Positions 1,346-22,506 of a stretch of DNA of 42,185 nt are shown one piece after another. Source of the DNA: Fragilaria crotonensis (Eukaryota; Bacillariophyta; Fragilariophyceae; Fragilariales; Fragilariaceae); the NCBI GenBank assembly GCA_022925895.1, contig JAKSYS010000555.1, positions 1 through 42,185 on the forward strand. Direction: 5' to 3'. Position 1 is the first letter of the stretch; each line of letters begins with the position of its first letter. The notes below the pieces were generated by a model. The model searched no databases. It was not told the DNA's origin and worked only from the letters and a program-made list of their open reading frames with translations. Made by a program: the position numbers and the translations under genes.

Positions 1346-1635
1346 TGCGCATCCCTGGTACAAGTACTAGAGTACTCGGAGTAAGCGTTTGGCGATCTCC
1401 TCGATGTTACTATGTATTCATACGCCTGGTACAATAACAGGTACTACCAGGTACTACAGCATTTGCGTATCTATTCACATTGCTATACTCACAATTCATC
1501 GAGCGACGAGCATACCGCAACGCGTGCATAGCCCCCTGTTCGACCAATGACAACGATAAGCAAGAAACAAAAGGAGCTGTCAGCATCCACCATCCACATG
1601 CTGGTGGAATTCGCCAGCTCGATTGAGGCAAACGC

Positions 1636-2445
1636 ATGATCATGACGAATGGAGTTATTATTGTCATTGGAGCTGTTGGTCTCCTGGTTTTCTTAGCATT
1701 TGTCATCCCCCCTGGTTATGACGACAGCTGCGCCGCGTATTCGTACGGTGGAAGCGCTCTGGACTGGGGAGGCATACCATGCAAACGAGGTATTGTCAAT
1801 CAATGTGGTGATTCATATGGTCAAAGTCCAATTAATCTCATGACCAGTGATGAAAATTTTGAGGCCTCCGAGAATGATGTAGTCATCGTTTCTGACAACA
1901 TGTCATGCCAAGATGAGTTAAACGTCGTTCACAACAAACTTCTATTCCCAGAATCTTGTTCCCCGACTATCAGCTTGGCGAGCCTGGAGTATCGCCTTAG
2001 GCAGCTTCATTTCCACGTCGGAGGAAGCGAGCACACCGTTGATGATTTCCGATTCGATGGTGAGCTCCATCTCGTTCAAGAGGGTCTATCAGGTTTTGTC
2101 GTTATCGGAGTATTTCTAGATTCATCGCAAGATGAGGCAAACGAGGATCTTGAGTTCATCCTGGAAATCTACGAAGGTGGAGCGCATCGACGACTGGCGA
2201 ACGAAGCCTGGAATCCATACAGTTTGGTTCAATCGCTTAACACCTACTTTACCTATCAGGGTAGTCTCACTACACCACCGTGTAGCTCTGGCATTCGGTG
2301 GATTGTCACACAAGAACCGCTTGCCATTTCTCAAGATCAATTGGGGCGACTCGCAGCTTTGTATCCATATGTGCCGAACTATCGGCCACTACAAGCGAGA
2401 GGTTCGCGACAGGTTATTCAATACTCGTCGGACAAGTTAAGGTGA
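1636..2445 (+). CDS. alpha-carbonic anhydrase, membrane-anchored or secreted
   Basis: A 269-residue protein that should interconvert CO2 and bicarbonate. Residues 7-24 form a hydrophobic signal peptide or signal anchor, followed by the alpha-CA fold: QSPINL at 63-68, the zinc-ligand block LHFHVGGSEHTVD with H125 and H127, the third ligand H145 in ELHLV, the gatekeeper-type pair E131/T133 region, and SLTTPPCSSGI at 210-220, whose TTPP carries the substrate-orienting Thr. Length and motif order are normal for the family. The usual NNGH proton-shuttle motif is not obvious; VVHNK at 97-101 occupies the area. Start: ATGs at codons 1 and 3 precede the hydrophobic stretch, so either could serve. No intron is needed. 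Diatom alpha-CAs act in carbon concentration, often in endomembrane or plastid-surrounding compartments; location here is inferred only from the N-terminus. Confidence 0.93.
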   Translation: MIMTNGVIIVIGAVGLLVFLAFVIPPGYDDSCAAYSYGGSALDWGGIPCKRGIVNQCGDSYGQSPINLMTSDENFEASENDVVIVSDNMSCQDELNVVHNKLLFPESCSPTISLASLEYRLRQLHFHVGGSEHTVDDFRFDGELHLVQEGLSGFVVIGVFLDSSQDEANEDLEFILEIYEGGAHRRLANEAWNPYSLVQSLNTYFTYQGSLTTPPCSSGIRWIVTQEPLAISQDQLGRLAALYPYVPNYRPLQARGSRQVIQYSSDKLR

Positions 2446-3115: not shown

Positions 3116-3934
3116 CTATGCCGCCATGGTTTTGACGTACTTGCTCTCCGAAATCTCTCTCAAAACAAAGATTTCGCTCGGCATACACTGTGGACGCTGG
3201 CTGCGGCACTCATCCAGCATGGAAAATGGGGTAACATACCCATGGCTGCGAAGAAGTTGACGAACTGCCTCGTCCTTCTGTACGTTGGTGCCGTCCATCT
3301 CGATCACAAACATGTCGATGGGAACACTCCAGTCAAAGGTTTCGAGGACGGTTAGCTCCCCTCCCTCTACATCCAAGTAGAACAAGTCCACATGATCAAT
3401 CTCATTCTTCTGGAACAATTCTGATAGCATCATGCATGGCACCTCCACCAATGCGGCGGACGCGTCGACAAATCTATCTTTGTGAATATCACTCATGTCC
3501 TGTGCAGCACCACCCGTAGCACCATTTTTGGCAGGTTGAAAAGAGATGGATTTTCCAGGACAAATTGCTCCGAAGACATTGGTAGCGTCGGGTCGGTTCA
3601 CAACCATCTTCGCGTAATTGTCGGGAAATGCTTCAACCAGAAGGGCTCGCCAATTGAGAGCATATTGAAAGAACCAAGAGTTACTGAAGGTTTTTCCATC
3701 AAAGCCCCCATCTCGACGATAACACCATCGCACTTGGGATCTTTTGCGAAGAAAGCATTGTAGACAACTTCGTCCTCCATGTACTGAGAGATACGGGACA
3801 TTCGGGGTTGCGAGGCACTTCTGTGTGATTGTCTTAGGATCAGCATGGCCAGGTCGTAGAAATTGACACTCAACAACCACCAGGCTGGAAAGGAAAGCAG
3901 AAAGCGCGCATAAACGAAGGGTGAAAGCAGGCAT
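3116..3934 (-). CDS. FkbM-family SAM-dependent methyltransferase, frame-broken
   Basis: The protein starts at Met 3934 with a secretory-type signal (FTLRLCALSAFLSSLVVV), then a short linker, then a Methyltransf_21/FkbM domain: QYMEDEVVYNAFF, motif I CDGVIVEMGA continuing as FDGKTFSNSWFF, YALNWRALLVEAFPDNY (cofactor acidic residue E), RPDATNVFGAIC, and VDLFYLDVEGGELTVLETFDW followed by FVIEMDG. FkbM enzymes usually O-methylate sugars or other hydroxyls; the substrate is unknown. Two frame changes are needed: one near 3790-3800 (one base extra) and one at the A-run 3701-3703 (one base short). They cancel, so a single frame stays open from 4090 to 3116 but replaces about 30 residues including motif I with unrelated sequence. 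An upstream extension to 4090 is open but precedes the signal peptide and is unlikely to be used. Confidence 0.8.
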   Translation of the reverse strand: MPAFTLRLCALSAFLSSLVVVECQFLRPGHADPKTITQKCLATPNVPYLSVHGGRSCLQCFLRKRSQVRWCYRRDGGFDGKTFSNSWFFQYALNWRALLVEAFPDNYAKMVVNRPDATNVFGAICPGKSISFQPAKNGATGGAAQDMSDIHKDRFVDASAALVEVPCMMLSELFQKNEIDHVDLFYLDVEGGELTVLETFDWSVPIDMFVIEMDGTNVQKDEAVRQLLRSHGYVTPFSMLDECRSQRPQCMPSEIFVLREISESKYVKTMAA

Positions 3935-4490
3935 GGTGATGGTTTTGAGTTGATCTTCGCTTGAATGAGGTTGGTAAGCTGGGCTTCGTTGAGTGAAGAT
4001 TGTGATGACCCCTATTGGCCACAATGACGCAATGCTCGATGTCGTTTTGACTACCGCCTGTATCATATGGGTTCGTACCAGGTAGGTCATTGCATAAGTC
4101 GAACGTCACGGAAAGGGTGTACTCGGACATTCGATGGATGACTCTTGACTTTTCCAAGACATACTCCTCTCATAGCTCCAATGCGGCGGTTCGAGTGCAC
4201 ACGGTTTCAGGAAAATTCGTGCCAGTCTTGTTGACATTCACTATCGTAGCTCGTAGTAGTAATTTCACGTATTACTGTACTACGAGAATTAGAACATTCT
4301 CCGTATAAAAAATTCTCACTCGTCCTACTTCCACATTGAGTGACCATGGCATCCCCCATTACATCGCACAGCACCTACCATAACTTTGCCTTCAATATGA
4401 TAATGACATAATGAATCATGTACACATTGTGTTGCGCTTCATTCTTGAGTCCGGATGCCTTGCATTTCTTCTAGTTGGTGCTACTCGATA
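3935..4490. other. Intergenic, nothing recognised
   Basis: Short open frames on both strands here show no family resemblance. The stretch is likely the upstream region of the minus-strand methyltransferase and the 3' side of the Ser/Pro-rich ORF. Confidence 0.5.
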
Positions 4491-5026: not shown

Positions 5027-5900
5027 TGGATATTGACATCATGACCTTGGGGGTGTCCGCTATCCTTAGCGATGGACAGCAATGCACAATTACATGTGAC
5101 GGGGTGCAAGGATGCATGGATCCGTATCATTGATGCCAACAAAGATAAACTGCTCAGAACCATGGGGGGTCATGATAAGCCGTCACAAATCTTGCATCTG
5201 CTTTATCAACCTATCTGTGTCAGCGACCAGACCAGCAGAACAATCAAATTCAGTATCAGTTGGTGCAGCCAACTATGGAAAATTATGGTTGCAATGAGTG
5301 GACAAGATGACCATGCAACAATTGAATGGCTGGGATGCTCCTCTTTATACTCATTTTGGCCTGACGTCCAATGAATTGAGCTGTAGATACCACTGGACGG
5401 GGGTGCAGAGGACAGCATTGATTCAAATCCAGATCTTCCGAGATTGAGTTCATTTAACGGGAAAGTGAGAAATGTTCCCGACAACTCGATTGTCCCTGAC
5501 TACGCTGGATTGTTAGGACCACTGCTTGTATGCGTGTTATCCATGGGATATAAGAAATGGTGATTCCCAGTTTTTTGTTTCTAAACGTGAACCTACTATG
5601 ATAATGGTCGTGGCACTATGTTCGTGGTCTGCTTAATTGATTTGATTAGTCTAGTCCCATAACAATGTTGAAGGTAACGTAGTTCATCAATGCTCAAACT
5701 TGTTGTAGTTTGCAATGATGACACAAGCAACCCCGTCATGGTGAAAGATAACGATAGCATCGGACCACTCCGTAGCCCGTGTTGGTTTTTTTTCAGTGCT
5801 GTAGATTTTGTACCAACAGCAGCTTGAAAAGGAAAAAATACTGCGAAAACCGTGTGCACTGGAACCGCCGCCTTGGAGGTCGTATCGTTCATTCAAAAGT
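5027..5900. other. Intergenic, short unassigned ORFs only
   Basis: Open frames of 60-100 codons occur on both strands (for example 5072-5374 plus and 5596-5892 minus), with no recognisable domain and no consistent coding pattern. The right edge meets the terminal repeat of the transposon at 5901. Confidence 0.45.
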
Positions 5901-5914
5901 GTAGGACAAAAAAA
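5901..5914 (+). repeat. 14-bp terminal inverted repeat, left
   Basis: GTAGGACAAAAAAA is followed at once by a second AGGACAA. It pairs with the complement at 10268-10281. Transposase binding is inferred. Confidence 0.6.
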
Positions 5915-6259
5915 GGACAATTTTTGGCGATCCTCGCTATCTCCAGATTTCCAATACGACTAAAATCGTAGTCGTACATCCTGTTCCTGACTTCATGACC
6001 TTTCCAAATCAGTGCTGCTTTCCTATTTTGTCCTAAAAATGGTGGAGATACATTGATGCAAAGAAAGACCAATTTTGTGGTCGTCGCAAAACTTTTTGTC
6101 CTAAATGAATCGCTCTGGAAAGGACAAAATTCACAAAAATACTCCGTACAAAAGTCAATTTTTAGATTTTCTCGTGATAAATTCTCATGTTAAATCTAAT
6201 CACCATGATGAGCATGGCCGCTATCTCTGGTTTAATAGACAACACTACTTTCTATCACT

Positions 6260-9200
6260 TCAAAACCTCCGTCTTGTCCTCCTTTCGGGTACTGTAATCG
6301 TACCAATGTTCCTGCGACGACTTGGAGGATGCTCAGGACTGCTTTTGCAATCGTCATCACTGCTGGAATTTTCTGGAATGAAGTCTTCATCGTCGTCATC
6401 GTTCCATGAGGCAGATGGTTGCACCATTGTCCCTCCTGCAGTCACAGCGCTCACAGAGGGTGGCACTATCACGTCTTCTGCAGACACAGCAGACACATTA
6501 TTGGCTCGACGGGGTGGCGGAGGCTGTCGGTTGCCGTGTGCGCGGACCGACAGTTGCATGCTTTGTGCTTCAGCACAACACGGGTCAAACAATGTCTCCG
6601 CTTCATGAAACAGAAGAAAACAGCTCTGCCCATTGTATCTTGGTCTTTTGCACAGGGGAACCTCACATACTGAACACTTCCACGTTGTCTTCATTCCGTG
6701 TCGAGTGTGCTTCTGTCCAGTTGAATGATCAATACGACAACACCAGACACAACTGGATTGCCTGTTGACGGAGATAGGTTGGTGGTTGGCTCTTTGATTT
6801 TTCCTCCGTTCAATGAGTGGTAGCTTGGAAAAGTATGCTTCGCGTTTGTTGTATGAAATATTAACACCTCCTGAAGAAGCGGCGTTGTCTCCTCCGTCCT
6901 CGGTCCTTCTCATCATCTGGCCATCGTCATCATCGCTGCAGCTTTCATACATTGATGGTGGAACAACTTCAATGTTTAAATCATTGGCAAGCTCTAGACA
7001 GAATTGGCGGAATGGAGGTTGACGCGCACGCCTCTGTTGGAAGTTCTTGAATGATTTGCATTCGTCACTCATAAGATATGAAACAGTTCGACTGAGATTG
7101 TGTGCGTGGTATGCATTGTAGACACATGTCATGATGAGGCGTAACCAAATTGCACCCACTGGACCGAGATGAAAATGCGCTGATTTGCAATTCTTTTGAA
7201 AGCGACTGTAAACATCGATCGGACCCTTGCCCCGATTCCATGTCGCCACCACCTCTGGAATTAGGTGGCGACCTGCCGGAAGAGGTTTCATTTGCTCATA
7301 AATCAACTTGCAGAGAGCTCTCCACAAGTCCAAGGTGCACTGGACGCTATGCTGATCAACTGCGTGGGACCCTGCTTCGAATGTCATAGCTGGCACAATC
7401 CCCTCCTCTATCCAATTCAGATGTTGCCGACCCAAATTCGTTATCACAGAAAGGTACTGTTCTCGTATCAAGGACGACCCAACTTGAACATGAACAACAC
7501 GGATTATCTTCCGTAGCGATGCGACAACGTAGAATGCATGGTCGAGAGCACCAGACGCCATACCATGGAGCAGTTGGCATCGGTACGACGCATCAGGGAT
7601 GCTTCGTTTGAACAGTTCAGGATCCTCGTCAGCGTTGATTTCTTGATACTCTCCAAACTCCGCAATCAGGTTGTACTCTTGAGTTAAGGTTGCCTGAGAA
7701 CACTTAGACTTCATCTCCACCAACGCCACATAACGCGTAGGGCCGGAAGGCAATCCGTCAACAAGAACACCTGCTATTGCATCCGGTGAAAACGCAGCCA
7801 GTTTCTCATCGGCATGACAAAGTAGTCCTAAGTCGTGAACAGTCTCAATTTTGATCTGATGACCTGCGGGTGCCAAGCATTTAGCACTTTTCTCGGAAAC
7901 GAACGAAGGGAAATGAGAAAATATAAATGGTTCGTTTAGTGTGCCTTCACGACAAGCTTTTGATTTGAAGGGTGCCATAAACCATGTCTTCATTAGCACA
8001 CTCAACACCGTAGTAGCCTCTTGGTTGCCTTCGTTGCGTCCGCCTGATAGTATTCTCTCTATCACAGCCGCCTTCGTCCCCGACACAGCTAAGTTTTTGT
8101 TGCGACATATTTCGCGGAGATCAGGAAGACCCATTTCACTTAGACGTTCATGTGTGAAGACAACGTCATCCACCGCCTCGTGTGTCCGTAGCAGGCTGAG
8201 AATCCGCAGCACTGCATTGATGTTCTCGTCGCGATCAACATCTGGATAGCGACTGAGTAGCATCCAAATAGCGTATGCACCTGTTCCTGTTATCCGAAAC
8301 TTTCGAAGCAGAAACCATTCAGGAGTTCGCTGGCTTTCCGTCAACATGATTGGAACTTTGTCAAGATATGGCATTACTGGATCGTCGTCGCTCCAGAACT
8401 TAATCGGTGCGTTCGCATCCCGCTGCGTGATCAGAGTGTAACGCCCTGGACCCAACGTTTCATCCGTTGTGTGCATGAGTACAACGCGACCCAACCCACT
8501 CCTGTTAGCCAAGGCGAACTGCTTGTTTCGTCCGGTTCCCCTGACAGCCCAATATGCTGCGGCGGTGCCCTTCTCTTGGACGAGCCGGCGTGAAGGGCCT
8601 GGGTTTTGGTCAAAGGTGAACGGAAATGATTTCATGCGTTTCGACGTGCCCACAAGCACAGCACCCTTTGCACTTGCAAACGAATTCACTTCACCTTCGA
8701 CGCCGCCGTAGCCTCTGTCCCAAAAGAATTTTGTCCTGTTGAGATAGATCTGAGACTCAATTGACGCTCCAGACAATGCAAGAAGGAGTATCTTTACACA
8801 ATCAATCGTCGACTCTTTCCTTGATGCGACATGGCCTCCACAGTACAAAGAAGTACAGTTGGAGACAGCGCCATGGTGGACGACGCCCAGCCCCTTGTTG
8901 GGGTTGTTTATCTGAGAGTACCCTTCAAGCACAACTCTTCTAGAACAAAGTCGTAGCAGATCATCATCGAGCCCGATGTCTGTTGTGCCAGGAACAAAAG
9001 CAATCTCAGCACATGTTCTGCGAACGATTGACATGGCAGTTGCCATATCTGTGTTGTGTGTCATAGGGGGCTTCCAAACTCCAACTCCTAACGAATCAAC
9101 AGTAAGACCAGTTGTTCCACACACCACCTGCGTTCGTGGAGCACGGTTGGTGGTATCGAGTGCTTTCAGTATTTGGCTGTACCGATAGTGACTCATGCCA

Positions 9201-9879
9201 CCAGTGGAGGAAGGGAAGTTCGATGCATTTGCAGGATCAAAGTACATAGAGGGGGAAACCTAAGAAGAGGGATGAGAACAAAAAGGCAAATTGCCGGTCA
9301 GTCCATTGATCAAATTAAAAACACAAGGAAGGCTTGCGTTGATATCCGATGTTCTTACCTTATAAAACGAAATCATGAGCTCGACACGAATGAATGCAAT
9401 TATGTCGGAGCTTGATACTAGATCATTACTATTTCTCATGTTGGAATTAATGAAGGCCTTCATGTATCCCAGAAAGTGTGGATCCATGAAGGCCTTCAAG
9501 CAGTCACCGGGCGAAATTGTACGAACATCCCGATCGCGCCTTGAACCAATTCTCTTTTTCAGGTTTCGAAGCACAACAGGAACTTCTTCGCGAGCCCTGT
9601 CAAGCAGACGGTTGTTGATGCCATCAATGGAAATGGAAACGTCTGGACGGTTGGATCCAGTGAGATACGTCCAGCCTTGACTTGCCACATCATGGCAATT
9701 GTTCCTCAAACCGCGCTGGGCAGAGGTATCATCATCACTTTGTCGTCGTCCTCATCGTTGTTACTACCGCTGACGTATGCACTCAGGTTGAACATGGTCT
9801 CCATCATGCTATTGTCAACATCTTCAATCCCTCCAAGGAGGTCCTCATTAGCACCTTCATATTGATCATCATCATGCAT
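6260..9879 (-). CDS. piggyBac-type transposase with internal SAP and YqaJ-like nuclease domains
   Basis: Exon 1 (about 9879-9359) starts MHDDDQYEGANED, an acidic head, and carries the piggyBac N-terminal helix SSSDIIAFIRVELMISFYK; a one-base shift near 9742 is needed inside it. A 99-bp GT-AG intron leads to exon 2 (9259-6260). Counting from Met 9247: GMSHYRYSQILKAL (17-30); catalytic Asp 1 in IGLDDDLLRL (94-96); Asp 2 in FFWDRGYGG (177), followed by LVGTSKRMKSFPF; a YqaJ-like start EWFLLRKFRITGTGA (310-324); a SAP helix pair (368-400); nuclease residues D489 (FSPDAIAG), E511 and K513 (VEMKSK) and Q558; Asp 3 in WNRGKGPIDVY (678); and a Cys/His zinc finger (833-881, CEVPLC). YqaJ enzymes are lambda-exonuclease-like nucleases, and SAP binds DNA. 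The protein should cut and rejoin element ends in the nucleus; the role of the added nuclease is unknown. The basic, Ser/Asp-rich tail is low complexity. Confidence 0.85.
9260..9358 (-). other. Intron in the piggyBac-YqaJ gene
   Basis: On the minus strand the donor is GTAAGAAC and the acceptor TTCTTAG. Splicing joins ISFYK to VSPSMYFDP in frame, restoring the order expected for piggyBac transposases. The intron contains in-frame stops, so it has to be removed. Confidence 0.85.
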
Positions 9880-10267
9880 GATGAAGTTGCTGCTTCATTT
9901 GCAATGGAATTTGCAATGAAATGCGAGTAGTAAAGAACTCGCATTGTAACAAGGTTCAGGTCGTGTTCATCAGCAAAATTGTCTCAACGACCATGCCGTG
10001 ATACTGTCATAACGTACCAACCCGTCATTCAACGTCAAAACTGGATTGCATACGCATAAACAAGTGTACCCCGGAGGTGCGTTTGGTAGTTGTGAAACGA
10101 TCCGTGACACTGAGCGAGTAAGCCATGAAGAATGGTGTGATCAGATCATGGTCAACACGGTGCTCTTCGTGTTAAACTTGATTAACCCGTGGTTATAAGG
10201 TTTCTTTTTGTCCTATTGCTAAATCCGCCGAAGGACAAAATGGATTCGGCGATCCGGAAATTAAATA
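9880..10267. other. 5' region of the transposase gene
   Basis: No ORF or RNA gene recognised. This is presumably the promoter and subterminal region of the element, holding inner AGGACAAAA/TTTTGTCCT copies near 10205-10245. Confidence 0.5.
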
Positions 10268-10281
10268 TTTTTTTGTCCTAC
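10268..10281 (-). repeat. 14-bp terminal inverted repeat, right
   Basis: TTTTTTTGTCCTAC is the exact complement of 5901-5914. It lies next to inner copies TTTTTGTCCTA at about 10206 and AGGACAAAA at about 10234. Confidence 0.6.
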
Positions 10282-10431
10282 CCGGCAGGATAAAAATGTT
10301 TAAAATCTTGTTTTGGGGGGGGCGGGAGTCAGGAGGTTCCTGCCTTCGTAGCGTGGCATGCTGAAATGAAGCCAGACTACTATGTCATACATCAATTCAA
10401 GGTTAGGTAATGCTTTAATGCTGAATACAGG

Positions 10432-14959: not shown

Positions 14960-17953
14960 ATGTCTAAAAAAAGAGCTTTTCTCAGTACTGCTCTTCTTGA
15001 CTACATCATCAACCTTACTAGTACAACTTTACTGCCTGACTCGACATTGTCACATACAGTACCGGCGGTTGAACCGTTGCTGGGTAGTCTTGGTGCAGAG
15101 GCATTTATATCATCAATGAATCTAACTGCCTCAATTAAAAGGGAACAAGCGAGAACAAAGAATGATTGGAAAGCATACCAGAATCACATTCGCAAGATTC
15201 GCACCAAGTTCAAGAATGTTCTCAAATACCATGTCAAGGATGGCGATTTCAAGAATATTCTCGATGAAAACATCGAGGATGTCCCACAGAGGCTTATTAT
15301 TCCAATTGTTCGGGGGCCACCTGATAGTCCCGGACATTTCTTTGTGGCATGCTTTGACTTTTCGGTAAATGATCCAAAATTCTTTGTGAACGTGTGTTTC
15401 TACGACTCTATGGAGCGCGCACGAACGAGAATTCATCGTTCCAGTACTGCTGCTGAAATTGTCGAGAAGGTCAACTTCTTCTTTAAGTTCTACATTCTTC
15501 ATGAAGCCAAATATCAGTCCCTACACCAGTCAGATGTCGACGTTCTTCAACGCGCACAATACAAAGAATGTCCTCGGCAGAACAATGGATACGACTGCGG
15601 AATCTTTACAGTCGCTGTCGTGTTACATCTTCTTGAACGAAAAGAAGTTGATGAGATGTCTTTCACTCAAAGTAATGTCACAGAAGGTAGGAAACACTTG
15701 GCGACGGCTTTGATTAATGCAAAATCCCCTTCACGTGAGCAGATTCGTGGCGTTTTCAGGAAATGCTTCCCTCTGCTCTTTGTCACCGAGGAGGGAAACA
15801 GTAGTGTCCCAACCATCGATTGTACTGAGGATCAGGATACACTATTGAGTGTTCCCTTGCAGGTCTGTGGTGGTGCCAACGACATCAAGGAGACCACCAG
15901 TGTGGACGACAAGGATGAGGACAACATAGCACTCCGGGTGAGAGACACAAAAGATTTGGCAACTCTGAGTGCAAGTGTGGACGACGAGGATGAGGACAAC
16001 ATAGCACTCCGGGTGAGAGACACAAAAGATTTGGCAACTCTGACTGCTGATGTGTTTCCTTCGAATAACAGAAACATAAGTAATGAGGCGAAGGTAAAGG
16101 ACGACGATGAAGAATTTTTTGACACCATCGACACTGACACTGAATCCCAGATGGAAGATGCTGCTGCTTCAAAGACAGAGAATGAAGATAGTGTTAGCGC
16201 TCTTTCAGGCGACACTACCTTCTACGACCTTATGAAGGAAGCAAAGTTGCAGTGCTTTCCAACACTGGAAGCTGTGAATCCTATTGTCGAAGCTTATGAA
16301 GTTCGGACTGGGAATTACTTGCGCATCAAGAGGTCAATCAACGACAAATTTCGTGTGTACGAATGCCGCGAGCATCTGGGGTGTCCTTTCCAAATTCGTA
16401 TCTCCCGCCGACGAGCCAATGGAAGTTTTGTGGTCTCGAAGATGAAGACCAAACACAGTGACGTTCGCCGCCCAGCAAAGGCAAAAGATGGGCGGAAATG
16501 GAAGAAGCGTCGCCATGCAAAGCTGAATGACATTGTCGTCAAGGTTCTCAAAACGAAGGATGGTGATCCGACACCGAACGACGTCATCAAAACCGCAGCA
16601 AACGAATGCGGTATAATTGTCCCTTACATGACGGCATACCGTGTAATAACAACCGATGCCGGGGTAGGACGGAGATTAATTGCGAAGAGTTTTGAGCAGA
16701 TTATCCCGTACGTAGAAGCCATGAAGAAATGCAACCCCAAGTCGGTCATCGGATGCACAAAGAGCGAAACCAACGAGTTGGTCGATGTCTATTTCTTTCC
16801 TGGTTTTATGAACGAGGCTCTGAAGTTTGTGCGACCTGTTGTTTCGCTTGACGCAACTCACCTGCGCAGCGAGTACAAGGGAACACTGTATGTCGCATCT
16901 GTGTTGTCAGGAAACAATGATGTGTTTCCCATTGGGCTGATGATATCTTCTGGTAACGAAGATGGAGCAACATGGACGAAGATGCTAAGGCTTCTCAAGC
17001 AAGCATCTCCTATCCTTAGTGGACGTTCATTTGTCTTTATTTCGGATCGGGATAAGGGTCTCAAGGCTGCCCTGGACGATGTTTTCCCAAGGAATTTGGA
17101 GTTTAGCTGTGCTAAGCACATAGAATCCAACGTGACCCAGCGGTTTGGAAAACAGTGTGGACGCTATGTTATGGCGATGGCCAAGACGTATTCTGCAAGG
17201 AATGCTGCTAATATGCTGGATCTGGTGCGCCAAATAAAGCCCAGCGCTGCTGCCTACATTGAAAGCATTGAAAGCGGCGGTGTGCTCTGGAAATGTTCAC
17301 AATGGATTGCCTGGCAACACTCAAACTTGCCCCCTCGATACGGAATTGTTACATCCAACACGAGTGAGAGCGTGAACAACATGTTCTCAGAGGCTCGGGA
17401 TCTGGCGTGGATGGAAGCTTTAGAAAAGATTGTTGACATTATGTCGACAAGGATTGGTGATTGTCGAACGAAGTATTTGAAGCGTGAGGATTCGGAAGTT
17501 GTTCCCCGTGTCGCTCAGATTTTGAAAGCACGTTGGGATGCTGCAGCATCCATGGCAGTGATGGAGATTGAACTTGGGTGTGGTGAGTTCAAAGTGACAT
17601 CATCAGAGTATGGTTCCACTGCTGACAAAGGCGAGCATGACATTGTCCTCTCCGTCGCCCACGGGTCACCAATGCACCAGCGAAGTATTCACATTGTAAG
17701 GCCTGGTGTACAATGGTGTTGGTGTGGGGCATGGCAAGATTGTATGTTTCCCTGCCGGCATGCCTGTGCGGTGTACAGAAAGTGGAAAGAAGTCGACTTT
17801 ATGACACCTTGTGTTCTTTTCCGCGTGAGCATACGAGCGTTGGGATTAACTCGACTCGGAAATGCCGTTCACACATCAAGAGTCAACGAGATGTTGTTGT
17901 GTTTGGGAATGATCCTATCGGTCAAGCCAGTCCGCAGTTCGGGGATGTACTGA
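14960..17953 (+). CDS. ULP1-type cysteine protease fused to a MULE transposase
   Basis: A 997-residue intact frame. Part one is a C48 ULP1-like protease: H126 (PGHFFVACFDF), D149 (CFYDSM), Q207 and C213 (RQNNGYDCGIF), the full catalytic set. An acidic linker follows with a perfect-frame 25-residue duplication (315-364). Part two is a Mutator-like transposase: a C/C/H finger (C469, C475, H499) like the FLYWCH/WRKY type, D631 (VVSLDATHL), D696 (FISDRDKGL), E803 (SNTSESVNN), and a SWIM finger C920-x-C922...C932-x-H934. The true start is probably upstream: the frame ending PPASDVECL joins this one if the A-run at 14966-14972 is one base short, and it supplies the usual start of the ULP1 fold; it is open back to about 14754. 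The C-terminus after the SWIM finger is short and atypical. Plant MULEs with ULP1-type domains are known; a direct N-terminal fusion in an alga is less familiar. Confidence 0.92.
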   Translation: MSKKRAFLSTALLDYIINLTSTTLLPDSTLSHTVPAVEPLLGSLGAEAFISSMNLTASIKREQARTKNDWKAYQNHIRKIRTKFKNVLKYHVKDGDFKNILDENIEDVPQRLIIPIVRGPPDSPGHFFVACFDFSVNDPKFFVNVCFYDSMERARTRIHRSSTAAEIVEKVNFFFKFYILHEAKYQSLHQSDVDVLQRAQYKECPRQNNGYDCGIFTVAVVLHLLERKEVDEMSFTQSNVTEGRKHLATALINAKSPSREQIRGVFRKCFPLLFVTEEGNSSVPTIDCTEDQDTLLSVPLQVCGGANDIKETTSVDDKDEDNIALRVRDTKDLATLSASVDDEDEDNIALRVRDTKDLATLTADVFPSNNRNISNEAKVKDDDEEFFDTIDTDTESQMEDAAASKTENEDSVSALSGDTTFYDLMKEAKLQCFPTLEAVNPIVEAYEVRTGNYLRIKRSINDKFRVYECREHLGCPFQIRISRRRANGSFVVSKMKTKHSDVRRPAKAKDGRKWKKRRHAKLNDIVVKVLKTKDGDPTPNDVIKTAANECGIIVPYMTAYRVITTDAGVGRRLIAKSFEQIIPYVEAMKKCNPKSVIGCTKSETNELVDVYFFPGFMNEALKFVRPVVSLDATHLRSEYKGTLYVASVLSGNNDVFPIGLMISSGNEDGATWTKMLRLLKQASPILSGRSFVFISDRDKGLKAALDDVFPRNLEFSCAKHIESNVTQRFGKQCGRYVMAMAKTYSARNAANMLDLVRQIKPSAAAYIESIESGGVLWKCSQWIAWQHSNLPPRYGIVTSNTSESVNNMFSEARDLAWMEALEKIVDIMSTRIGDCRTKYLKREDSEVVPRVAQILKARWDAAASMAVMEIELGCGEFKVTSSEYGSTADKGEHDIVLSVAHGSPMHQRSIHIVRPGVQWCWCGAWQDCMFPCRHACAVYRKWKEVDFMTPCVLFRVSIRALGLTRLGNAVHTSRVNEMLLCLGMILSVKPVRSSGMY
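15902..16051 (+). repeat. 75-bp in-frame tandem duplication
   Basis: Two copies of a 75-bp unit (15902-15976 and 15977-16051) encode VDDxDEDNIALRVRDTKDLA plus five residues each, within the acidic linker of the ULP1-MULE protein. They differ at only a few bases, so the duplication is recent. Confidence 0.9.
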
Positions 17954-21216: not shown

Positions 21217-22506
21217 TTAGATATCGAAGAGTGGAGCCCCATTCTCAAGCTGGTATTGGACAATCACACAAATTGCCTCAAAGCAAATCTTATGCTTTGC
21301 CATTCCATGGCGAAACTGATTGTCCAGGGAGGCGAAGTTTTTGAGCCTACCATTGAATGTTTCATGTCTGGCTCGAGCTCGTGTCTGTGATAGTTGTCAT
21401 TGCAATGATAATGTGATGCGACATCAAATATCATGAGAAAATTCCTCCTGTTGGCAAGCACATGATTTTGCAAGCAAAGCAAGCTCGTGCTTGAACTTAC
21501 CTTGAACTCCCGAAGCGCTGGCGTGTCACGCGAGTTTGGTGTACAAAGGATTTCTTTCTCGCCACGGTACCCCTGATCTGCTATTCCCTTCTTTCCCGTT
21601 GGTGTCTTCTCTTTCAGTCCCCCATCTTCACGGAAAATAGAAACATCATGCTTTGAAGCGACAAAGGGACCATTCATCCATACAAGTGAGTTATCGGAGA
21701 GAGAAATTGCAAGCTCGTATGCGAATCCTGCTTGATTGAACTTGTGCGAATATAATTGTTTGTCTTTGGCCAATGTTGGATGCATAACTTCATTTGTTCT
21801 GCAATGAATGCCATCGACTGAGTATAGAAAGTTTGGAACAGTTATGTCGGCAACGTGCACATTGTTCACAGCACCCCAGTGCTCTGGCCATACAATCTAT
21901 ATGCATGCGATGATGTCAGTTGTTGGTTTGAGAACATAATAAAGTACTAGCTAGTGGAGCACGATTCTTACCTTCTTTGCCTTCAAAGCCTGAATCCTGG
22001 AAGCAATGAACCAAGCCCACTTTCGAGCTGTTGTCTCACAGAGTTTGGAACTTCCAGCCAACTTCTCTTCTGTCGGGTATACATTCAGGAGGTATAGAGC
22101 AAGAAAAACTTGTCCAGAGTTGTTGCAGGATTGATGCGGGCCTCTTGAATCTCAGTTGTCAGCAAATCTTCCCATATGACAGCGCAGACGAGTGGGAACA
22201 ACCAAAATGGGATTGGAAGCGCTTGATGTTGGTGGCCCTAATAACTCGCTCTCGTCGGCAAGCATCAAAGCCTGCCCAATCAAGGCCAATTCGCATCACC
22301 TGGTCGACTGTGAAGATCATTTGTTTGGTATCGCTTGCTCTTGGTTTCTTGTGTTTTGTGACATGCGAGGGCAAGGCAGTGTGCCTGTCATCGTGAACGC
22401 CACGATACTCGAAACGCCATCTCACACGATAGCCTTGCAAAATAAACGGTTGCGGACGGACAACACAGAGAAATTTTGTATCGAAACATAAGCGTATATA
22501 GGTCAA
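21217..22506 (-). CDS. PIF/Harbinger (HARBI1-like) transposase, three exons, frame-broken
   Basis: Minus strand: exon 1 (about 22506-21972), exon 2 (21896-21501), exon 3 (21384-21217), with GT-AG introns of 75 and 116 bp. Exon 1 gives NIKRFQSHFG, then ARINPATTLDKFF, LYLLNVYPTEEKLAGSSKLC and RKWAWFIASRIQALKAK. Exon 2 continues VWPEHWGAVNN, then the DDE_Tnp_4 core FLYSVDGIHCR (Asp 1), YSHKFNQAGFAYELA, GPFVASKHDVSIFR and KKGIADQGYRG (Asp 2). Exon 3 gives ARARHETFNGRLKNF (catalytic Glu) and ends with VQYQLENGAPLFDI and a stop. Two frame breaks in exon 1 fall at homopolymers (22194-22196 and 22104-22108), each one base short. All three catalytic residues are present. The enzyme would excise and insert the element, usually at a TAA-like target. 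The 5' end is uncertain because no early ATG is in frame. Confidence 0.85.

Follow-up and report, generated by a model that had tools for sequence, protein, structure and literature searches.

Related systems and the locus

Exonucleases of the lambda and YqaJ type prepare DNA ends for recombination, and lambda exonuclease itself, LHK-Exo, R354 and the phage YqaJ nucleases are all separate enzymes. The transposase of the piggyBac element from Trichoplusia ni (T. ni) has a core that is split between aspartates D346 and D447 by an insertion domain (residues 372-433), as laid out in the structural account of PMC7351741. The same account describes a channel, filled by target DNA and lined by beta-hairpin loops that belong largely to the insertion domain, and a reaction involving hairpins whose opening leaves a four-base overhang of the old flank. 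A DDE transposon that encodes a YqaJ exonuclease in a second open reading frame (ORF) is also on record, namely ISL2EU, and the function of this product is stated there as unknown (PMC4482050). Here we describe an element in which a divergent piggyBac-type transposase appears to contain a YqaJ-like nuclease block. It resides in a stretch of 42,185 nucleotides from the diatom Fragilaria crotonensis (contig JAKSYS010000555.1 of assembly GCA_022925895.1, positions 1 to 42,185), and this whole stretch is called the window below.

A nuclease-like block inside a transposase

The window copy and its relatives constitute a cut-and-paste transposon family of divergent piggyBac type in this diatom genome. 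An earlier reading of the window, the original prediction, had proposed a piggyBac-type transposase with a YqaJ-like block and a SAP helix pair between its second and third catalytic aspartates, and this architecture is supported by the motifs, by Pfam matches in relatives and by the element ends. About 500 residues separate D181 from D682, and they hold the nuclease block of approximately 310 residues. Topologically, piggyBac has its insertion domain at the corresponding site (D268, D346, insertion 372-433, D447; PMC7351741). The SAP helix pair proved to be real, and it is nested within the nuclease, between motifs 1 and 2, rather than beside it as had been supposed. The residue numbers given earlier are correct when counted from Met5 of exon 2; numbering from the start of exon 2, as used here, the residues are D98-100, D181, D682, D493, E515, K517 and Q562.

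Five ordered motifs, fold matches obtained from low-confidence models and a match to a RecE-like PHROG family underlie the assignment of the nuclease, and together they suggest a YqaJ-like domain. In the window copy, the motifs occur in the order W-x3-R-x3-IT-x-T, G-x3-E443, SPD493, E515-x-K517 and Y-x2-Q562. When generalized to a signature (W-x3-R, G-x3-E, [NST]-x-D, E-x-K, [YW]-x2-Q), the set is found in 19 of 21 known YqaJ-type proteins, in none of 14 ordinary piggyBac proteins and in none of 50,000 shuffled versions of the insert. Within the family it is present in the proteins of the window copy, L011 and L004 (3 of 37 pieces, most of the others being too short), and W315 and R319 are kept in all 12 pieces that cover both positions. 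Exceptions at the nuclease residues include L010, in which E515 is replaced by K, and L018 and L040, in which K517 is replaced by N. An hhalign comparison of the insert with a profile of 17 YqaJ-type proteins, prepared by dropping four near-duplicates (L107, L108, L109 and L125) from the 21, places G-x3-E, SPD, E-x-K and Q in register.

Among viral models, Foldseek placed a phage YqaJ exonuclease at the top for the low-confidence full model (E value 7.6e-4, the sole match at or below 0.001) and also returned a pandoravirus YqaJ-like recombinase (probability 0.97); among PDB chains, lambda exonuclease came first (E value 0.027, probability 0.92). The first eight rows of the VIA-align output comprise lambda exonuclease, LHK-Exo, a phage exonuclease and mimivirus R354, with Z scores of 7.0-8.0 (LHK-Exo 8.0). 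PHROG 434, a family of RecE-like exonucleases, was matched by 3 of 19 insert pieces (best E value 6.3e-4). A PDB profile search with the insert returned SAP domains, mimivirus R354 at an E value of 0.16 and unrelated chains; the same type of search with the whole family gave SAP domains and one unrelated chain. Nothing relevant emerged from an NCBIfam search. The insert modeled separately, from an alignment lacking L014 and L023 (partly out of frame) and L043 (fragmentary), gave a mixture of nucleases in Foldseek, none of them significant.

The surrounding protein is assigned to the piggyBac type from its zinc finger, from the element ends and from matches of relatives to a Pfam model. The Pfam model DDE_Tnp_1_7 was matched over the cut-off in 2 of 9 proteins scanned (L015, 2e-6; L018, 1.8e-6) and in 5 of 37 family pieces at E values up to 1. 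Ten of its 84 matches in the genome lie at loci of the nuclease-bearing family and cover only profile positions 1-99 of 349, and the matched region in the relatives begins in exon 1. In the search of domain models that had been suggested earlier, SAP was found in the window protein and DDE_Tnp_1_7 in relatives, while the Pfam scan of the window protein matched neither a transposase nor a YqaJ model. The model zf-Tnp_2 was matched in 4 of 37 pieces (best 8.9e-5; L007 and L004 under the cut-off). Furthermore, the modeled zinc finger aligns with that of piggyBat (9c0f_D) over 65 residues (VIA-align, model residues 806-890; Z 5.5, root-mean-square deviation 2.9, 23% identity), and its Cys and His positions are largely kept across copies.

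Copies of the family and constraint on the insert

A search of the same genome with the 999-residue product of exon 2 gave at least 72 matches on at least 27 contigs. Searched alone, the 331-residue insert matched 29 contigs, the N-terminal transposase half 29 and the C-terminal half 33. Other copies with the same architecture, which the original prediction had proposed to seek, are indeed common, since both transposase halves were also matched on 25 of the 29 insert-bearing contigs. Two of the others (C375 and C794) matched the C-terminal half and not the N-terminal half, and the remaining two (C20 and C253), which hold only short fragments, matched neither. No insert-free version of the family was found among the contigs of this genome that match both halves. 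In C83 and C753, both halves were matched and the insert is gone, and the deletion takes D181 as well; thus, these copies have lost an internal segment and do not represent a form without the insert. A single scan of viral contigs found no relative.

One relative, L011 (contig C52), retains both terminal repeats with a TTAG/TTAG duplication, and both of its exons are open, exon 2 over 1041 codons. Between this copy and the window copy, synonymous differences in three parts of the protein are saturated (0.76, 0.79 and 0.84), whereas nonsynonymous differences amount to 0.18, 0.26 and 0.24, so that the insert is constrained much like its flanks. The insert is under purifying selection.

Other copies are nearly identical to one another. 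Seven members of subfamily B (L012-L017 and L024) share 98.4-99.5% identity over 4.0 kilobases (kb), and their private differences, counted by alignment column, are mostly insertions or deletions (indels), with 0-11 substitutions each. The frame is interrupted in all seven. They represent a very recent burst, indels from long-read assembly, or both. Identity to the window copy can also be uneven along a copy: L006 and L009 are 77-84% identical to window positions 5895-7085, about 91% over the next 200 bases and mostly 95-98% beyond, with 86% in the last block. This patchwork indicates recombination between copies.

Element ends and target duplications

The better-kept copies end in terminal inverted repeats of the form CCCC...GGGG, represented by CCCCCGACAT in L009, CCCCAGACA in L011 and CCCCAGT in subfamily B. 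In the window copy, comparison of the ends with those of other copies shows decay of the outermost repeat bases. A pattern search for subfamily-B ends recovered 29 left and 25 right ends, including those of derivatives of about 1.37 kb. These non-autonomous derivatives (C268, C295, C614, C265, C100 and others) have the subfamily-B left end and, in most cases, a variant right end.

Perfect duplications of four base pairs (bp) lie outside the CCCC...GGGG ends in 14 of the 24 copies for which both flanks are readable, and they read TTAA in six cases, TTAG in three, TTAT and CTAG in two each and CTAA in one. A mismatch at one position was found in four copies (L010, L012, L014 and L020), and six (L004, C19, C198, C289, C775 and C67) have flanks without a matching duplication. 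The flanks of C775 are those of C289, which leaves 23 distinct copies among the 24. Outside this count are C537 and C595, with unreadable 3' ends, the single-ended copies L007, L016, L019 and L023, and other single ends. Two traits of piggyBac are therefore present, the 4-bp duplication of a TTAA-type target and the C-rich (pyrimidine) 5' termini, while a strict TTAA rule fails (6 of 14). Two of the copies with a one-base mismatch, L012 and L014, carry few private substitutions over 3.9 kb (1 and 9, respectively), which makes later mutation an unlikely source of the mismatch.

Gene structure, features and neighborhood

The features of the window copy are collected in Table 1. Splicing of its two exons would give the junction FYK|VSPSMYF, and the corresponding FYRVSPSLYF is unbroken in the intron-less copies L012-L014. 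The splice is supported by this continuity of subfamily-B copies across the junction.

Table 1. Features of the window copy. Residues are numbered from the start of exon 2. Conservation was tallied over 23 loci, "covered" meaning copies that span the position.
Feature	Position	Strand	Basis and remarks
Transposable element, extent	5895..10299	-	DNA homology limits, blastn against L006, L009, L010; terminal CCCC/GGGG and target duplication degraded here
Subterminal inverted repeat, left arm GTAGGACAAAAAAA	5901..5914	.	Inverted-repeat search
Subterminal inverted repeat, right arm TTTTTTTGTCCTAC	10268..10281	.	Inverted-repeat search
Exon 1	9359..9879	-	First Met at 9879; starts MHDDDQYEGANEDLL; contains IIAFIRVELMISFYK; frame interrupted near 9740 here
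Intron, 99 nucleotides, GT-AG	9260..9358	-	Position shared by L004, L010 and L020; lacking in subfamily B and in L018
Exon 2	6260..9259	-	Single open frame, 999 codons
Transposase N-terminal part of exon 2, residues 1-299	8363..9259	-	Presumed dimerization/DNA-binding remainder and first half of RNase H-like core; roles by analogy with the piggyBac layout described in PMC7351741
Presumed first catalytic aspartate, one of D98-D100 (GLDDDLLR)	8960..8968	-	D at each position in 20/20 copies covered
Presumed second catalytic aspartate D181 (FFWDRGYGG)	8717..8719	-	D in 18/20 copies covered
YqaJ/lambda-exonuclease-like nuclease block, residues 311-620	7400..8329	-	Five-motif signature; Foldseek; VIA-align; PHROG 434; low-confidence models
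SAP helix pair, residues 374-404	8048..8140	-	Pfam SAP 1.3e-5, over cut-off
Putative nuclease residue E443 (GTLNEP)	7931..7933	-	E in 18/19 copies covered
Putative nuclease residue D493 (FSPDA)	7781..7783	-	D in 20/21 copies covered
Putative nuclease residues E515, K517 (VEMKSK)	7709..7717	-	E in 19/21, K in 17/21 copies covered
Putative nuclease residue Q562 (YRCQ)	7574..7576	-	Q in 23/23 copies covered
Transposase C-terminal part, residues 626-905	6545..7384	-	Copy alignments and search of genome with this half
Presumed third catalytic aspartate D682 (WNRGKGPIDV)	7214..7216	-	D in 17/22 copies covered; role inferred
Putative C-terminal cysteine-rich zinc finger, residues 837-885 (CxxC, CxxC, C, CxxxxH)	6605..6751	-	zf-Tnp_2 in relatives; piggyBat structural alignment

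Two inverted arms of 32 nucleotides (4176-4207 and 5847-5878), 94% complementary and 1639 nucleotides apart, lie immediately beyond the element's left end; a stretch overlapping them recurs in the flank of L019. These arms possibly belong to another small repeat that replaced the left terminus of the element. Beside the element lie genes for a carbonic anhydrase (1627-2445, forward strand; 1.6e-34) and an FkbM-type methyltransferase (3116-4105, reverse strand; 2.3e-13). The window also holds another enzyme-bearing transposase, a 997-codon ORF at 14960-17953 (forward strand) that joins a Ulp1-type protease (Peptidase_C48, 1.4e-8) to a Mutator-type transposase (MULE, 5.6e-11), and a further DNA transposon remnant, a DDE_Tnp_4 fragment at 21264-21896 (reverse strand; 2.2e-7). 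In the genome as a whole, the silicon-transporter model has 19 matches, 18 of them over the cut-off, in keeping with a diatom host, and contig C97 (29749-33762) contains a 1456-codon frame with three successive silicon-transporter matches.

Proposed mechanism and its alternatives

That the element itself processes its excised ends or target DNA, as the original prediction suggested, is plausible, and no observation made here contradicts it. More specifically, the family may be a piggyBac-type transposon in which a fused YqaJ/lambda-exonuclease-like domain with a nested SAP motif, at the position of the insertion domain, trims the DNA ends of transposition, a proposal whose chances we judge to be evenly balanced. 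In such a reaction, the N-terminal helical domain and the C-terminal zinc finger would bind the CCCC...GGGG inverted ends, as their piggyBac counterparts suggest. The site formed by D98-100, D181 and D682 would then cut and join at a four-base TTAA-like target, for which duplications are seen and the chemistry is presumed, while the fused exonuclease, kept in the same complex, would trim the ends. The most likely substrate would be a donor-derived four-base 5' flap remaining after the hairpin is opened. When the old target differs from the new one, this flap is mismatched at the new site, and trimming by a complex-bound 5'-3' exonuclease could allow the two targets to differ. Targets do vary in the nuclease-bearing family; by contrast, CTAG flanks all three of this genome's ordinary piggyBacs for which ends were found. 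The four one-base mismatches among the duplications might possibly be flaps that escaped trimming. The broken donor site perhaps could also be resected by the same enzyme.

Various observations weigh against or qualify this interpretation. The sequence of the flap is immaterial for T. ni piggyBac according to the structural account (PMC7351741), and trimming is thus not needed there. A perfect duplication is wanting in 10 of the 24 readable copies. Exon 1 of the window copy differs in length by one nucleotide from L009 and L010, which breaks its frame; given this break and the lost terminal bases, the window copy appears inactive and is probably dead, unless the break in exon 1 is an assembly error. 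The comparison of the window copy with L010 yields a ratio of nonsynonymous to synonymous change (dN/dS) of 1.27 for the insert, from very few changes. The residue tally contains the seven near-identical copies, so the copies counted are not independent.

The domain assignments face difficulties of their own. A hidden Markov model built from 14 ordinary piggyBacs of the same genome scores the family no better than shuffled sequences, hhalign comparisons of the family halves with these 14 are weak, and PDB profile searches with each transposase half found no transposase. The two AlphaFold models are both poor, with mean predicted local distance difference test (pLDDT) scores of 39.6 for 920 residues and 45.1 for the 331-residue insert. 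Because the fold of the DDE core is not confidently predicted and these profile tests are negative, the label used here is "piggyBac-type, divergent." For the nuclease, the Pfam family YqaJ (PF09588) is unmatched in the whole genome and in 19 insert pieces, and the domain is accordingly called YqaJ-like and not a member of that family. Four of 200 column-shuffled controls outscore the insert in the hhalign comparison with the YqaJ profile. The five-motif signature fails in the piece from L018, even though that piece extends over most of the domain; moreover, the first form of the pattern caught 9 of the 21 known proteins, missed both lambda exonuclease and the insert, and was revised once thereafter. 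A Z score of 8.0 lies within the range that VIA-align calls common by chance, and the aligned spans begin near model residue 95, outside the insert. The argument from VIA-align thus rests on the coherence of its rows. With the insert-only model, the best VIA-align score was a Z of 4.7, for lambda exonuclease.

Other explanations for the insert differ in what they ask of the nuclease. The main alternative places its action at the donor site, where it would chew back the 5' strands of the break, block seamless rejoining and force homology-directed repair from a sister or homologous copy, so that each jump adds a copy. Enzymes of the lambda-exonuclease type, which the domain resembles in its fold matches, make 3' single-stranded tails for recombination, and the mosaic copies L006 and L009 record recombination between copies. 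Mosaicism is also known in ordinary transposons, however, and short target duplications are uninformative on donor repair; on balance this explanation appears improbable. The most ambitious version of end processing would be a single-protein cut-resect-copy transposon, in which a working second nuclease within the DDE core resects the element's own ends and the element controls repair, gaining freedom from a fixed TTAA, homology-directed copies, or both. We consider this version rather unlikely. Conversely, the insert might be a catalytically dispensable DNA-binding platform that enlarges the insertion domain, with SAP and the nuclease fold holding AT-rich target or chromatin DNA. No other domain match is as strong as that to SAP, and in piggyBac the loops of the insertion domain line the target channel (PMC7351741). 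A pure platform would not need metal-site residues, and the retention of most of the presumed ones (D493, E515, K517 and Q562; Table 1) across subfamilies with saturated silent sites counts against this idea, which also seems improbable.

Two further possibilities would separate the nuclease from transposition altogether. It might defend the element or its host against viruses or rival transposons and be carried on the transposase only for expression. The fold matches do include mimivirus R354, whose PDB title refers to a virophage-resistance system and for which the profile match is weak (E value 0.16), but the nuclease is fused inside the presumed catalytic core, and on 27 of the 29 insert contigs one or both transposase halves are matched as well; a defensive role is thus highly unlikely. 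Finally, there might be no fusion at all, merely two elements nested by chance or an artifact of a dead repeat, as could be suspected from a window copy broken in exon 1 and at its ends and from the many interrupted copies. Yet the insert occupies the same place in the subfamilies aligned, exon 2 of L011 is open throughout in a copy with both ends, the insert is constrained like its flanks and no version lacking it was found among the contigs that match both halves. Chance nesting was therefore rejected on the grounds of recurrence and selection, and an absence of fusion is scarcely credible.

If the cut-resect-copy version were correct, it would define a class of DNA transposons with an end-resection enzyme of their own built into the transpososome. 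A lambda/YqaJ-type enzyme within such a cut-and-paste transposase core would suggest that certain transposons see to repair themselves rather than leaving it to the host. Should the nuclease be active, the family would offer recent copies with this activity in the same polypeptide, making the role of YqaJ testable by single-residue mutants, and would provide a naturally occurring case of a transposase equipped with an extra enzyme for processing ends.

Comparison with known systems

The original prediction knew of no described system with this layout. A full-text literature search found no published YqaJ fusion inside a DDE core among the matches listed, and to that extent the statement holds; it has to be qualified by ISL2EU, whose second ORF is a YqaJ gene (PMC4482050). 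Like the diatom family with its putative YqaJ-like nuclease, ISL2EU, of the PHIS superfamily, is a DDE transposon that encodes a YqaJ exonuclease. As portrayed in PMC4482050, ISL2EU differs in keeping YqaJ in a separate frame, in its AT duplication, in its termini, which are usually GG, in its THAP domain and in its transposase, which is related to PIF/Harbinger. Membership in ISL2EU was rejected because the diatom element has a single protein, 4-bp duplications and CCCC termini.

KolobokP likewise is a DDE transposon with a nuclease, and the Kolobok superfamily makes TTAA duplications (PMC9587614). Its nuclease, however, is a separate His-Me finger enzyme encoded on the other strand, the element has long terminal direct repeats and Kolobok termini are 5'-RR, according to the description in PMC9587614. 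Membership in Kolobok or KolobokP was rejected on account of the CCCC termini and of the different type of nuclease, which here lies within the same protein.

The diatom family shares with piggyBac and piggyBat the N-terminal DDE_Tnp_1_7 region (in relatives), three spaced aspartates that are presumed to be catalytic, a putative C-terminal zinc finger, 4-bp duplications and C-rich 5' termini. It differs from them in that its presumed core is split by about 310 residues of nuclease and SAP, and in that TTAA accounts for just 6 of the 14 perfect duplications. Its zinc finger (CxxC-CxxC-C-CxxxxH) is nearer to those of PiggyMac and PGBD2-4 than to that of T. ni piggyBac in our own comparison with the patterns given in PMC8086355. 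In the same genome, the ordinary piggyBac-like elements (L021, L022, L025-L036 and L102-L105) are without the insert, the signature being absent from all 14 of their proteins examined, and many of them match DDE_Tnp_1_7 over nearly its whole length. Of the 18 ordinary loci scanned for terminal repeats, most being too short to hold both ends, three (L022, L103 and L104) have a CTAG flank next to a TGTCTA... repeat, and not TTAA.

With lambda exonuclease, LHK-Exo, mimivirus R354 and the phage YqaJ nucleases, the diatom domain shares the five ordered motifs, and these enzymes are the best fold matches of its low-confidence models. It differs from all of them in being unmatched by the Pfam YqaJ model, in being interrupted by a SAP motif and in being embedded in a transposase.

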